DNA from: Bacteroidota bacterium
GTDB taxonomy: Bacteria; Bacteroidota; Bacteroidia; Flavobacteriales_C; GCA-002722245
DNA: 32,464 nucleotides
Assembly: GCA_026390935.1 (NCBI GenBank)
Contig: JAPLEZ010000146.1
Coordinates: forward strand, 1-32,464
Direction: 5' to 3'
Position numbers and translations under genes: made by a program. The notes beneath the pieces were generated by a model, which saw only the letters and a list, made by a program, of their open reading frames with translations, ran no database searches and was not told where the DNA came from. Below, in pieces: positions 3,702-7,779 of this stretch; the first letter of the stretch is position 1; each line of letters opens with the position of its first letter.

Positions 3702-5189
3702 TCATTGGATGGAATGCTGTCTTTGCAAAACTAAAAACGTGTCTTTTTTCTCGTAGTATATTTTCCATTCTTTGCTCGATAATAATTTTTTTAATTTTTC
3801 ATCGTAGGCTTTTTGATCCAATGGATATTTGTTGGTTTCGGCGGTAAAAAGAAATATGAATTTCGCATTTCCTATATGTGGGTATAAATACACAGTATCG
3901 TGGTTGCACAAATGCGGTACCAGCATGTTTTGTGCACTAATGCTGGAGTTTTCGGGAATAGAATCTAAAATAGGTTGCAGGTCTTTTAGTGTTTGTATGG
4001 TTACGTAATGTCGTTTTTCGTAAAATTTTACAAGAGTAGGCTGATACCATATTGATTTGCGCTTGTCGAGAGATTTGAAGTTGAAAGCATGTGTACTTAT
4101 TGCAAGTACACTTACGAAAATAATTTGCTTTTTTATAGTATTGAAACGCAGCGCAGCATCTATAATAGCGAAACTTAAAATCGGTGCAAATTCAATGGAA
4201 TACTGATAATTAATTCCGTGTAAAAAGGGGTCATTCGACAAAAGATTTTGCGCATAAATGGGCAGCAGCATTATGAGGTAGTATGGTCGGAAAAGAATAG
4301 CCAGTCCGCCCGACGCCAACACCATCATATGCAATTCTCCTTTAATTCCGAAAGTATCAGGGTTGTTTGAAAAGCTCTCAAATAACAGAGAAAAAACATA
4401 GGCTGGTCGGGTAAACAGGGTAGCTATAATTTCGCTTAAAGAATTTCCTAAATGGCTGTATCGGTCTAAATGATTGGCGACAGGACCATTGCTTAATGAA
4501 GGCATAACGACTTTGATGATCAGCACAAAGTAAATCAGCACGAATACAACTATTGGAATTTCAAATTGGAAATATTTTTTAAAGTTTTTATAGCCGCCTT
4601 TGAACATCAATCCAATGAAAATAAATGCCAGCCAAAGGGCCATGTTTTCTTTTGAAATCAAAATTATAAAGGTGAAAAGCAACACCATTTTTTTGTTGCA
4701 TTTTTCGTAGTGGTACAAAAGCCAGGGCACAAACATGGCACCAACTACATTGTTGTGAAAATCATGGGCCAGTGCGGAATAGATCCCCCAGATTCCAAAA
4801 AATTGCACAAGCATAATAATGGGGAAATTTTTGTTTTCGCTTTTCAGTTGCGCATACTTATAAACGCCCCATCCCCCAAAAAGAACGGACGCAATTTGAA
4901 GGATCAAAAAAGTCCATGATCCAAAGAGATAATACAGCGGAGTATATAAAATGGTGATGGGTGAAAAATGATCGTTCAAAAAACTAAATTCTTTGCCTTC
5001 CAGCCATATGGTGCAATTCGGCATTTGGAATTTTGAGAGGTAATGAAGGATTTGATTGAAAACACCCAAATCTAAACCGAAGGTTCGCAGGTTATAGTGA
5101 TTGGGCAAAGAAATGGCAGAGAAAATAAGTCCGAAAAAAAGGAAAATGTAAATGACTAAACGTGATTTTTTGTGATTTACTTTTTCCAT
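3702..5189 (-). CDS. DUF2079 family polytopic membrane protein
   Basis: The 495-residue protein has about ten hydrophobic segments from residue ~10 to ~370, then a soluble C-terminal part. The N-terminal signature fits DUF2079: LRTFGLDLGVFNQILHYLS, then LNDHFSPITILYTPLYYLFG. DUF2079 proteins resemble GT-C membrane glycosyltransferases. The acidic residue in the DLG segment and the DHFSP motif sit where GT-C enzymes carry first-loop functional residues, so a lipid-linked sugar transferase role is possible but unproven. It starts 6 bp after the stop of the phosphatase-like gene and is probably cotranscribed with it. Confidence 0.8.
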   Translation of the reverse strand: MEKVNHKKSRLVIYIFLFFGLIFSAISLPNHYNLRTFGLDLGVFNQILHYLSKFQMPNCTIWLEGKEFSFLNDHFSPITILYTPLYYLFGSWTFLILQIASVLFGGWGVYKYAQLKSENKNFPIIMLVQFFGIWGIYSALAHDFHNNVVGAMFVPWLLYHYEKCNKKMVLLFTFIILISKENMALWLAFIFIGLMFKGGYKNFKKYFQFEIPIVVFVLIYFVLIIKVVMPSLSNGPVANHLDRYSHLGNSLSEIIATLFTRPAYVFSLLFESFSNNPDTFGIKGELHMMVLASGGLAILFRPYYLIMLLPIYAQNLLSNDPFLHGINYQYSIEFAPILSFAIIDAALRFNTIKKQIIFVSVLAISTHAFNFKSLDKRKSIWYQPTLVKFYEKRHYVTIQTLKDLQPILDSIPENSSISAQNMLVPHLCNHDTVYLYPHIGNAKFIFLFTAETNKYPLDQKAYDEKLKKLLSSKEWKIYYEKKDTFLVLQRQHSIQ

Positions 5190-5195
5190 GAGGGA

Positions 5196-5657
5196 TTAAA
5201 AGTAAGGAAAATTACTTTTGATAAATTCTATTGCTTCGTCAATGAACATTTGCCAGTTGTGATCGGGCATCCAGATGTTGGTAATGAAATTTTCTATTTC
5301 ACTTTCTTCTATTTTTTGGATAGAAAATAAGTAGAGTGCTGCAAAAACGGAAGCGCGATAATTGGCTGCACAGTGCACTAAAACTTTTTTATTTTCATTC
5401 TCTTTCATTTTTTCAAAGAAGAGGATGAAGTCGGGAATTGTAGGATTGTCAAATAATACAGGAATATGAAAATATTTGATATTGAGTTTTTCGACGAAAA
5501 ATTTTTCGTTTGGAAGAGAATAATCTTGATCAGATAATCCAAGATTTATGATGATAGAAAAATTTTCGTTCGCAATATTTTGTAGTTGAGCTTCGCTGGG
5601 TTGACCAGAGCAGGAGAGGGATTCGGAGACTTGGTGAAAATTGATAATGTCGGACAT
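5196..5657 (-). CDS. Protein tyrosine phosphatase-like protein (DUF442-type, CX4R motif)
   Basis: This 153-residue protein resembles the small phosphatase-like domain of the DUF442/beta-lactamase-hydrolase-like family. Near the N-terminus SESLSCSGQPSEAQLQNIA is typical of that group. IIINLGL follows, and the P-loop is VHCAANYRAS with C96 and R101. The Cys-Arg spacing is four rather than the canonical five residues of tyrosine phosphatases, as in other DUF442 proteins. An aspartate general acid is not obvious; the D70/D76 region is a candidate. It leads the presumed transcript through DUF2079, MBL hydrolase and hemL. Substrate is unknown. Confidence 0.75.
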   Translation of the reverse strand: MSDIINFHQVSESLSCSGQPSEAQLQNIANENFSIIINLGLSDQDYSLPNEKFFVEKLNIKYFHIPVLFDNPTIPDFILFFEKMKENENKKVLVHCAANYRASVFAALYLFSIQKIEESEIENFITNIWMPDHNWQMFIDEAIEFIKSNFPYF

Positions 5658-6022
5658 GATGTAAATTTAGGTATTCTTCTTCACGCTCGCTCCGTGAAGT
5701 TTTCAACTTCGCGGAATCTTTTCTTCAAGAATTTTTCTTGGTGAATAGAAAAGAAGCTGAAAGCTTCAAGAAAAGATTCCGTTAAGTTCGCTTCGCTAAA
5801 CTTAACGGAGGGGGGAGCATTTTTTCGGCATCGCTTCGTGAAGTTTAGCGAAGCTAACTTCGCGAAATAACGTATCTACTTGGAAGTTTTCAACTTCCTT
5901 TTTCTGAAAGAAAAAAAAATTAAGATTATTCGGGATGTTCCTCTTCGAGGAAAGAAGCTGAAAGCTTCTAAGTGCGTTTGTAAAATCACCAAGTTCGCTG
6001 CGCTAAACTTGGTGAGGCCGGG
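5658..6022. repeat. Gene-free spacer packed with short palindromes
   Basis: This 365-bp stretch has no credible gene and consists largely of inverted repeats. A 20-bp core, AAGTTCGCTTCGCTAAACTT, occurs at 5785-5804 and, with one change, at 5991-6010. An inverted one-mismatch copy lies at 5841-5860. Each has its own flanking stem: CCGTTAAGTT/AACTTAACGG (5780-5809), CGTGAAGTT/AACTTCGCG (5837-5864), CACCAAGTT/AACTTGGTG (5987-6014). Smaller hairpins include CTTCACG/CGTGAAG (5679-5699), GAAGTT-TTC-AACTTC (5696-5710, 5883-5897) and GAAGCT/AGCTTC (5753-5768, 5954-5968). A 14-bp pair, 5712-5725 with 5769-5782, encloses some of them. This looks like a REP-type or attenuator cluster. Confidence 0.75.
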
Positions 6023-6244
6023 TTATTTTATTTTCAGGAAATATCCTCTATATGAATAATCAGGATCGCTTAATTTCCATTTTTGTTGACATGTATCACA
6101 TTGATAAATATGTTCTTGGTTCTTAAATTCAATAAAATTCATTTTAGACCTTCCAAGTTTTTTAGTGAGAAGCGTGTCAAAAATTAACCAATCATTCTCA
6201 CTTGAAAATGATTGGTATTCATCAGTAAAACAATCACTACACAT
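6023..6244 (-). CDS. Small hypothetical protein with a zinc-ribbon-like pair of CxxC motifs
   Basis: This 73-residue protein has Cys pairs at C2/C5 (MCSDC) and C49/C52 (YQCDTCQQKW), a spacing that would fit a zinc ribbon. No enzymatic motif is present. The start lies 17 bp after the gpmI stop on the same strand, so it is probably cotranscribed with gpmI and the upstream histidine kinase. I do not recognise a named family. The paired Cys motifs and operon position favour a real gene over a chance frame. Confidence 0.65.
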   Translation of the reverse strand: MCSDCFTDEYQSFSSENDWLIFDTLLTKKLGRSKMNFIEFKNQEHIYQCDTCQQKWKLSDPDYSYRGYFLKIK

Positions 6245-6261
6245 TTTTAATCAAATAATTT

Positions 6262-7779
6262 TCACACCAACACTTCCCCCGTCATATCCTTCGGAATTTC
6301 CACCTCCATCATTTTCAAAATAGTTGGAGCGATATCTCCCAACTTTCCGTTTTTGATTTGTTTGTAATCCTTGTCGATTAAGAAACATGGAACAGGATTC
6401 GTTGTGTGAGCTGTATTCGGTGATCCATCAGCATTGATCACATAGTCAGCGTTACCGTGATCGGCGATGATGATGAATGAAAAACCTTGTTTTGATCCAC
6501 ATTCCACCACTTGTTTTACGCAAGAGTCAACAGTTTCAACTGCTTTAACTACCGCTTCGTAAACTCCGGTGTGGCCCACCATATCAGGGTTGGCGAAGTT
6601 TAAGCACATGAAGTCATCTACGCCTTTGTTCAGTTGTGCGCATACTTTATCTGTTAATTCTTGCGCACTCATTTCTGGTTGCAAATCATAGGTTGCAACT
6701 TTAGGTGAAGCAGCCATAATGCGGGTTTCTCCCTTGAAAGGTTCTTCTCTTCCGCCGGAGAAAAAGAAAGTAACGTGAGGATATTTTTCAGTTTCGGCAG
6801 CACGGATTTGATTTTTGCTGGCTTTCTCCAAAGCTTCTCCCATAGTCATGGTGAGATTGTCTTTTTCGTAAATTACATGTACCCCTTTGAAAGCCTCGTC
6901 GTAGCGAGCCATAGTAACATAATACAAATTCATTTTGTACATGTTTTGTTCGTGGAAATCTTGCTGACTCAAAGCCTGCGTGATTTCTCTGCAACGGTCG
7001 GTGCGGAAGTTAAAACAAATCACTACATCACCTTCTTTGATGGTGGCAGTTGCTTGTCCGGAAGCATTAGTAATTACAGTAGGTTTAACGAATTCATCGG
7101 TTTCATTTTTGGCATAAGAAGCTTTCATCGCTTCAACTGGATCAGCGAAATGTTCGCCTGTTCCATGCACCAATAAATCATAAGCCATTTTAACGCGTTC
7201 CCAACGTTTGTCGCGATCCATAGCGTAATATCTTCCGCACAAGGAAGCAATTTTCGCGTTTGTTTTTTTGATGTACTCTTGTAATTCTGTTACGTAACCC
7301 AATCCGCTTTTAGGATCCACATCACGTCCATCGGTAAAAGCATGAATAAATACGTCTTTTACACCTTCAGTGGTGGCCATGTCGCACAAAGCGTATAGGT
7401 GTTTTTGGGAAGAATGCACACCACCTTCGGAAATCAATCCTAATAAATGCACTGCTTTATTTTTGTCTTTGGCTTCTTTGAAAGCGGCTTTCAAAACAGG
7501 ATTGGAGAAAAAAGATTTGTCACGCACTGCAACATTGATTCTTACTAAGTCCTGGTACACAATGCGTCCGGCGCCAATATTTAAGTGACCCACTTCCGAG
7601 TTACCCATTTGTCCTTCAGGCAATCCAACTTCTTCGCCACTAGTGATCAATTCAGAGTTTGGGTGATTGGTATACAATGAATCCACAAATGGAGTATTCG
7701 CATTGAAAATAGCATCAGACTTGGTGTGATCGCCTTTTCCCCAGCCATCCATGATAATAAGAGCAACTTTTTTAGACAT
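6262..7779 (-). CDS. gpmI: 2,3-bisphosphoglycerate-independent phosphoglycerate mutase
   Basis: This enzyme interconverts 3- and 2-phosphoglycerate in glycolysis/gluconeogenesis. It belongs to the alkaline phosphatase superfamily and uses two Mn2+ ions. The 505 residues match the family length of about 510. The N-terminal IIMDGWG contains metal ligand D11, and GNSEVGHLNIGAGR contains the phosphorylated serine S61. HAFTDGRDVDP, GRYYAMDRDKRWER, FNFRTDR, FFFSGGREEPF and the C-terminal IADHGNAD plus NTAHTTNPVP are also present. It starts 12 bp after the histidine kinase stop, so the two genes are likely transcribed together. Confidence 0.97.
   Translation of the reverse strand: MSKKVALIIMDGWGKGDHTKSDAIFNANTPFVDSLYTNHPNSELITSGEEVGLPEGQMGNSEVGHLNIGAGRIVYQDLVRINVAVRDKSFFSNPVLKAAFKEAKDKNKAVHLLGLISEGGVHSSQKHLYALCDMATTEGVKDVFIHAFTDGRDVDPKSGLGYVTELQEYIKKTNAKIASLCGRYYAMDRDKRWERVKMAYDLLVHGTGEHFADPVEAMKASYAKNETDEFVKPTVITNASGQATATIKEGDVVICFNFRTDRCREITQALSQQDFHEQNMYKMNLYYVTMARYDEAFKGVHVIYEKDNLTMTMGEALEKASKNQIRAAETEKYPHVTFFFSGGREEPFKGETRIMAASPKVATYDLQPEMSAQELTDKVCAQLNKGVDDFMCLNFANPDMVGHTGVYEAVVKAVETVDSCVKQVVECGSKQGFSFIIIADHGNADYVINADGSPNTAHTTNPVPCFLIDKDYKQIKNGKLGDIAPTILKMMEVEIPKDMTGEVLV

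Follow-up and report, generated by a model that had tools for sequence, protein, structure and literature searches.

The window, the whole 32,464-nucleotide stretch of contig JAPLEZ010000146.1 analysed here, belongs to a Bacteroidota genome (G000) of 3,755,448 bases in 155 contigs, which we compared with related genomes, among them G002, G003 and G004. A Por_Secre_tail domain, together with the transposase relatives from outside the genus, points to this phylum. Its spacer at 5658-6022 is flanked on one side by a phosphatase-like gene and on the other by a 73-aa ORF followed by the gene for 2,3-bisphosphoglycerate-independent phosphoglycerate mutase (iPGM; 6262-7779, minus strand). The first of these neighbours (5196-5657, minus strand) encodes a dual-specificity-phosphatase-like protein of 153 aa with 86% identity to its counterpart in G002 and 77% to that in G004, its Pfam matches all falling under the curated cut-offs. 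The 73-aa ORF (6023-6244, minus strand), for which a Pfam search returned no family above cut-off, touches with its stop codon the right end of one of the elements described below. Its slot is occupied by a different ORF of 141 aa in G002, with no match between the two, and by a third ORF in G004, the latter judged by eye. Both flanks of the spacer lie on the minus strand, and placing it between two minus-strand operons, as the original prediction did, is a fair description of the order of the genes only. Elsewhere in the window, a gene for a DUF2079 membrane protein (3702-5189) has no counterpart at that place in G002, in which 21 bp separate the flanking genes, and a 625-aa protein encoded at 13944-15821 matches GcpE in two stretches; GcpE also exists in a long form that carries an insert.

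A 20-bp core had been noticed three times in the spacer, once inverted. All three places are present, but the match is exact only at 5784-5803 (+) and is one base off at 5841-5860 (-), which reads AAGTTAGCTTCGCTAAACTT, and at 5991-6010 (+), which reads AAGTTCGCTGCGCTAAACTT. Of the compensating outer stems ascribed to these copies, CCGTT/AACGG and CACC/GGTG pair perfectly, and CGTG/CGCG includes one G-T wobble on the plus strand, equivalent to a C-A mismatch on the other. The short-loop palindrome reported alongside them is real, spans 5691-5715, and has a wobble as in the CGTG/CGCG stem. What had been missed is the larger unit: the cores form the outermost hairpins in a pair of elements with inverted ends, which we call A and B.

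Element A, a non-autonomous copy of what we define below as subfamily I, occupies 198 bp (5827-6024), with its L end on the left and its R end on the right. Against R1, a covariance model of the end module, the two ends score 101.9 bits (5827-5918, minus strand) and 93.2 bits (5935-6024, plus strand). The L end contains three hairpins, of which the outer one carries the core at 5841-5860 and the foot ATCGCTTCG, and the middle one, GGAAGTTTTCAACTTCC, lies at 5882-5898; the R end has hairpins at 5938-5952, 5954-5968, and 5986-6015, the outermost holding the core at 5991-6010 within an outer stem TCACC/GGTGA. Element B, a non-autonomous copy of subfamily II of ~135 bp (about 5683-5817), has a short-loop end on the left and a core-bearing end on the right. 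Its right half (5731-5817, plus strand) scores 65.4 bits with R1, and its left half (5683-5755, minus strand) is a weak match of only 19.3 bits (E 0.09). From left to right, B presents a short-loop outer hairpin, TCCGTGAAGTTTTCAACTTCGCGGA, at 5691-5715, an inner hairpin, GAAGCTGAAAGCTTC, at 5753-5767, and a core-bearing outer hairpin at 5778-5809 that encloses the exact core (5784-5803) in the stem CCGTT/AACGG. This layout is that of a longer, transposase-containing unit on another contig, C106.

Both elements belong to a dispersed family. With up to two mismatches allowed, the core has 33 matches in the 3.76-Mb genome, compared with 0 for the reversed pattern, so the dozens of genome-wide copies expected of a REP-like repeat are there and a core unique to this spacer is ruled out. 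R1 finds at least 85 matches at E <=0.01 in the same genome, a lower bound given that 150 of 3859 first-look candidates were scored. These matches fall on 38 contigs as 31 outward pairs and 23 singles, an arrangement that has the canonical REPIN trait of intergenic paired inverted palindromes, and for several of the "single" ends a search in smaller pieces brings out a weaker partner. Twenty-nine of the pairs span 141-254 bp; the other two, of 717 and 778 bp, each enclose a tnpA gene. R1 and the covariation test presented below were built on an alignment of 25 ends (A2), derived from a preceding one of 29 (A1) by leaving out the core-bearing end of element B of subfamily II (C42_5784), the tnpA unit's L end, and the ends C108_43018 and C122_13822, whose inner hairpins are odd. 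The core matches that lie outside A1 are L008, at a contig edge, L026 on C10, and three without loci.

Each end of an element consists of two to three short hairpins, the outermost being either the core or a short-loop version of it. Read from the outside in, an end module comprises the outer hairpin, a linker, and a hairpin GAAGCTGAAAGCTTC or GGAAGTTGAAAACTTCC, to which subfamily I ends add a variable hairpin with mostly a TTC or TGC loop. The two subfamilies are told apart by the sequence adjoining the core: subfamily I ends have TTTCGNN and AATCWCC next to it, and subfamily II ends have ATTCCGNN with either a long loop or a short GAA loop. In our reading of the end-type table, which disregards that its short-loop label also picks up the inner hairpin of subfamily I, the pairs whose two ends could both be assigned within one subfamily comprise 14 of L+R, 15 of long+short, and one of long+long (L221), with no L+L, R+R, or short+short combination; the other pairs in the table have an untyped end or mix subfamilies. 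Among 87 distinct ends, 72 outer-hairpin loops are 10-12-nt variants of (A)CGCTTCGCTA, 14 are GAA, and one is TTC. This set and a related one of 71 ends were defined by an exact AAGTT...AACTT with a nearby inner hairpin, and therefore favour well-formed copies. Past AACTT, conservation drops after about nine positions, the last six of which are GARGCG, and the outer foot, read inwards, is GC[CT]TC or GCTCC in 73 of the 87 ends. Only 7 of the 87 carry the canonical REP tag GT[AG]G in the 12 nt to either side of the hairpin core. As to genomic context, 48 of 49 elements are not spanned by an ORF of at least 55 aa, and the remaining one is spanned by a 63-aa ORF; this survey set aside three contig-edge groups (C13, C84:125, and C112), and ORFs in it and in the synteny surveys were chosen by length, with no gene caller. 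Other repeats share the genome with this family. The window has a further short palindromic repeat at 1668-1711 (the TTGCTTTAATTTTTGTACTCAAAAATTAAAGCAA region), with dozens of matches in G000 and its relatives, and a repeat of the form CTCCTTTTTCAAAGGAGGAAG ... GTTAGCTGGCATTTCCTGAA lies beside elements at L204 (3600-3700 and 4150-4420) and L197 (1790-1880), where by eye it truncates the R end of one element.

Three genes matching Y1_Tnp (PF01797) were found in the genome, and two of them sit inside units bounded by the ends of one subfamily each. tnpA I (C135:300-845, minus strand) lies between an R end (208-300) and an L end (893-985), and tnpA II, the gene on C106 (L035:2066-2617), lies between a long-loop and a short-loop subfamily II end. 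G000 thus has one tnpA gene per subfamily, and G003 has up to four matches, some of them partial. The two proteins score 104.7 and 103.5 bits against NF047646 (REP_Tyr_transpos; cut-off 80) and 22 and 21.8 bits against the IS200-family profile NF033573, below its cut-off of 55. The REP-associated tyrosine transposase (RAYT) that the original prediction had raised for this genome is therefore present, and within units that have the same ends as the spacer elements. The third Y1 gene (G000:C118:708-1037, L036) reaches 69.3 bits with NF047646, below the cut-off of 80.

The proteins, of 181 and 183 aa, retain the residues of the active site. In an alignment of 16 sequences that includes both, His62, the second histidine of the HUH motif, and Tyr143 are invariant, and His60 is nearly so. 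The predicted structure of TnpA I (pLDDT 90.2) has as its best Foldseek match 4er8 (E 8.3e-9), the E. coli TnpA-REP with a REP hairpin, on which it superimposes with a Z score of 16.0 and an rmsd of 2.3 over 141 residues, whereas IS200/IS605 transposases give Z scores of 11.6 and lower. A single-sequence search of solved structures returned no match; a profile search did. In sequence motifs, TnpA II has NHVH, WQ, and YIHNNP, and TnpA I departs from these once, with YIHDNP. Subclass 2.6 of the RAYTs, equivalent to group 5 of Bertels, is described by NH[LIV]H, WQ, YIH[QN]NP, and a length of ~179 aa (PMC6006769), and judged by their motifs both proteins appear to fit it.

Within the taxonomic family, R1 matches occur in 5/5 genomes of the genus to which G000 belongs (G000 included) and in 0/5 of the sister genus, and relatives of tnpA have the same distribution; completeness is no more than 77% and 74% for two of the five from the sister genus, and the co-occurrence of elements and tnpA amounts to one phylogenetic contrast. 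At the window spacer, element A is present in G002 (88% identical) without B, and G004 lacks A but shares the right half of B (92% identical over 77 bases). Copies A and B therefore come and go separately, although the absence of B in G002 may be a loss, since G004 has part of it. We obtained no empty site that is clean and has defined junctions, and the apparent one (G002, L197) retains an element fragment by eye.

The transposase genes differ in how far they can be followed. G002 carries tnpA I at the corresponding locus (93% identity over 515 bp), with the YceI side in common, and the dN/dS of the gene between G000 and G002 is 0.03 over 126 aligned codons. The alignment stops at codon 126, and from there to the end of the contig (L166, G002:C10, from ~3070) the G002 DNA is unrelated, which means either an interrupted gene copy or a misassembled contig end. 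For tnpA II, none of its neighbours turned up next to the relatives' genes at the loci examined. Outside the genus, tnpA relatives were collected at 15 loci, one of which, 97% identical over 126 aa, is probably from the genus itself. Ten of these loci (L077-L086) have a complete ORF and both flanks, and seven of the ten have an inverted flank match of at least 11 bp, a count made with no shuffle control; the others have broken ORFs (L087 and L088), reach contig ends (L075 and L076), or give a short match (L089). The longest inverted match, of 35 bp, is at L082, where the hairpin loop is again CGCTGCGCT. One common design in Bacteroidota and Balneolaceae relatives would fit these data, without being proved by them.

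We consider it very likely that the spacer contains a pair of neighbouring mobile elements, non-coding and with paired ends, from two related subfamilies, for which longer units with the same ends encode a TnpA-REP (RAYT), and that these TnpA-REP proteins are what mobilises them. The best reading is that A and B are REPIN/MITE-like non-autonomous elements of two subclass-2.6-type REPtrons (RAYT group 5), and the window copies were probably moved by a REP-type tyrosine transposase encoded elsewhere in the genome.

The pairing of the stems bears on this reading and on one of its rivals. Among the 25 R1 ends, 92.0% of cells pair, compared with 85.2 in shuffled alignments, and both partners vary in 10 of the 27 pairs, giving 50 double-change cells against 13.2 when shuffled, in a test that ignores relatedness among the ends. 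Sliding the partners by one to three columns brings the double-change cells down to 4-9. Further pair types show no excess (18 against 17.0 shuffled) in the same ends. Immediately outside AAGTT/AACTT, the next two base pairs make up 140 cells in 70 of the 71 ends of G000 and G002, the remaining end having been binned elsewhere under a faulty label. Of these cells, 117 are Watson-Crick, whereas 10,000 shuffles, which also ignore relatedness, average 57.4 with a maximum of 77. The claim of different but self-complementary flanks thus extends to the family, in that outer-stem pairing is kept through changes on both sides. As the outer stems vary but stay paired and the long loops vary little, the outer stem seems, on these alignments, to matter as structure and the core as sequence.

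Covariation alone does not tell selection on folding from the "correction" of quasi-palindromes by template switching, a known mutational mechanism in which imperfect stems are mended at replication with no selection on the fold. Compensated stems of this origin would account for outer base pairs that vary in sequence and mostly remain paired, and the short-loop ends of subfamily II (14 of 87, loop GAA) are perfect palindromes, as correction would leave them. The other ends, however, are asymmetric, with loops of 10-12 nt in 72 of 87, features that correction is expected to even out, and 23 of the 140 outer cells are still non-Watson-Crick. We regard template switching as an unlikely source of the compensated stems.

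A different function for the hairpins would be in RNA, as bidirectional terminators or 3'-UTR stabilisers that persist long after mobility was lost. Six terminator-like sites fall in 5600-6300 where 0.4 are expected; ORF sides that adjoin elements within 160 bp are 3' ends in 96 of 135 cases and 5' ends in 39; and 5 of 11 junctions with elements are convergent, compared with 16 of 141 without (p 0.008). Nonetheless, a T-rich stretch lies outward of the outer hairpin in only 3 of 87 ends and inward in 8 of 87, and the window neighbours are all on one strand, so that terminators there would cut the presumed operon. Maintenance as RNA also leaves unexplained the paired-end units, the tnpA genes within the same ends, and the presence/absence differences among relatives, and we hold it to be distinctly improbable as the main reason for the hairpins; they may have a side role in RNA, though not a general one. 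An Rfam search of the window found no family above its gathering score, and matches at lax thresholds were all below their family scores, which excludes those families as an explanation.

The more ambitious proposal is that the elements act as attC-type folded sites at which a transposase gains, loses, or swaps the small adjoining genes. It would make of TnpA-REP and its two hairpin-end types a cassette system, RAYT-linked and based on folded DNA, that shuffles small lineage-specific genes in fixed slots, an analogue of integron cassettes with no integrase. The window suggested it, as the ORFs in the slot differ between G000 and G002, with stop codons that touch or nearly touch the R end, and the third ORF in G004 lies ~12 bp from the end of the B hairpin stretch by eye. 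Several other shared sites also have different ORFs in one slot. Between the tnpA unit and the shared flank, G002 lacks two blocks of C135 that each combine an element and an ORF, and it has other DNA farther along.

In one pipeline covering 166 conserved gene pairs, at least 250 bp of non-conserved DNA is present in 10 of 11 element junctions, compared with 33 of 141 element-free ones (p 1.2e-5) and with 33 of 75 element-free ones whose spacers measure 40 bp or more (p 0.007). The contrast fades against element-free spacers of at least 100 bp (33 of 55, p 0.08). Length turnover behaves similarly: 6 of 11 junctions with elements exceed the 25 of 141 for all element-free junctions (p 0.01) but not the 25 of 75 for spacers of at least 40 bp (p 0.19) or the 25 of 55 for those of at least 100 bp (p 0.74). 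A smaller, earlier run had given 3 of 7 against 14 of 77 (p 0.14), and the first impression of turnover at ~11 of 13 sites does not clearly survive the element-free control. Moreover, no small ORF lies beside elements at two non-orthologous loci (135 sides of 78 merged elements in G000 and G002), which rules out dispersed homologous cassettes. We give very little credence to the gain, loss, or swapping of adjoining genes at such sites, and equally little to the wider integron-like system. Between two elements, at L034:992-1327, lies a small ankyrin-repeat ORF that belongs to a block G002 lacks at this place. Lastly, an ordinary MITE of a DDE transposase with terminal inverted repeats, which short, paired, inverted ends, intergenic position, and middling copy number might call to mind, is extremely unlikely, given that the gene in both long units is a Y1 HUH transposase and that the ends are multi-hairpin and of two types.

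Returning to mobilisation by TnpA-REP, the working model is as follows. Each element presents inverted end modules whose outward limit is an AAGTT...AACTT hairpin with a GCYTC/GCTCC-like foot, the outer hairpin being bulged and longer-looped in subfamily I and at one subfamily II end, and a perfect short-loop palindrome at the other. This hairpin, folded in single-stranded DNA, is most likely what the TnpA-REP proteins recognise; they would then cut next to its foot with the HUH/tyrosine active site, most likely mobilising the DNA between two ends of different type. By extension, we infer that the proteins of these two units moved both window copies.

Among known systems, the closest are the REPtrons of subclass 2.6, whose structures in Bacteroidetes are called "atypical" and are without GT[AG]G (PMC6006769). 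The protein signature is very similar (NHVH, WQ, YIH-NP, and ~180 aa) and the phylum is the same; the 81 residues from His62 to Tyr143 compare with a median of 82 between the motifs in subclass 2.6; and in both cases the genes are flanked by atypical structures without GT[AG]G that have copies elsewhere in the genome (PMC6006769). Unlike subclass 2.6 as described there, the ends seen here are modules of two to three hairpins, of two types and with a GCYTC-like foot; the text of PMC6006769 gives no end anatomy for its structures, and its supplement (Table S1) may record some. The kind of system is thus already known, and its paired, different-ended, multi-hairpin, and mostly non-GTAG anatomy is a variant for which we found no description in the literature, supplements aside.

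The elements also resemble the REPs, REPINs, and BIMEs of gammaproteobacteria in being inverted palindrome pairs, mostly intergenic, with a cognate RAYT (PMC2817692, PMC3686654, PMC6006769), and palindromes preserved in modified REP copies have been read as suggesting selection for complementary mutations (PMC2817692). Classic REPs, as those sources describe them, have GT(A/G)G directly adjoining a palindrome (PMC2817692, PMC3686654), whereas the ends here are longer, multi-hairpin, and mostly untagged, and the tnpA gene lies inside a unit with the same two ends. The original prediction of REP-like elements selected for folding is accordingly supported by the copies, the RAYT, and the pairing, but these are not canonical REPs, and the unit is a pair of ends, not a single palindrome. 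With IS200/IS605 elements such as IS608 and ISDra2, they share the Y1 HUH transposase fold and folded left and right ends, but the transposases are below the IS200 cut-off, and tnpA I occupies one locus in two species whose versions of the protein differ at few amino acids. TIRtrons, or TIRYTs, likewise place a RAYT-type gene between long inverted repeats unrelated to GTAG REPs, some of the repeats being self-complementary and some forming repeat families (PMC3733652), but only 2 of the 87 ends here, one of them in the tnpA II unit, have in the 30 nt beyond the hairpin the motif GGGGWSAS that some of the TIRs share (PMC3733652).

RAYT transposases are widespread, and subclass 2.6 is their Bacteroidetes branch, whose DNA partners the text of PMC6006769 calls only "atypical". 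The elements described here give such a partner a defined form: paired hairpin ends that differ from each other, a candidate tag at the foot, and natural variants in which stem changes are compensated. RAYTs look domesticated, and the benefit they bring to the host is still uncharacterised (PMC6006769); if small-gene turnover proves to be due to the elements, it could supply that missing benefit. The natural variants are ready-made substrates for binding and cleavage assays that ask whether the stem sequence matters or pairing alone.
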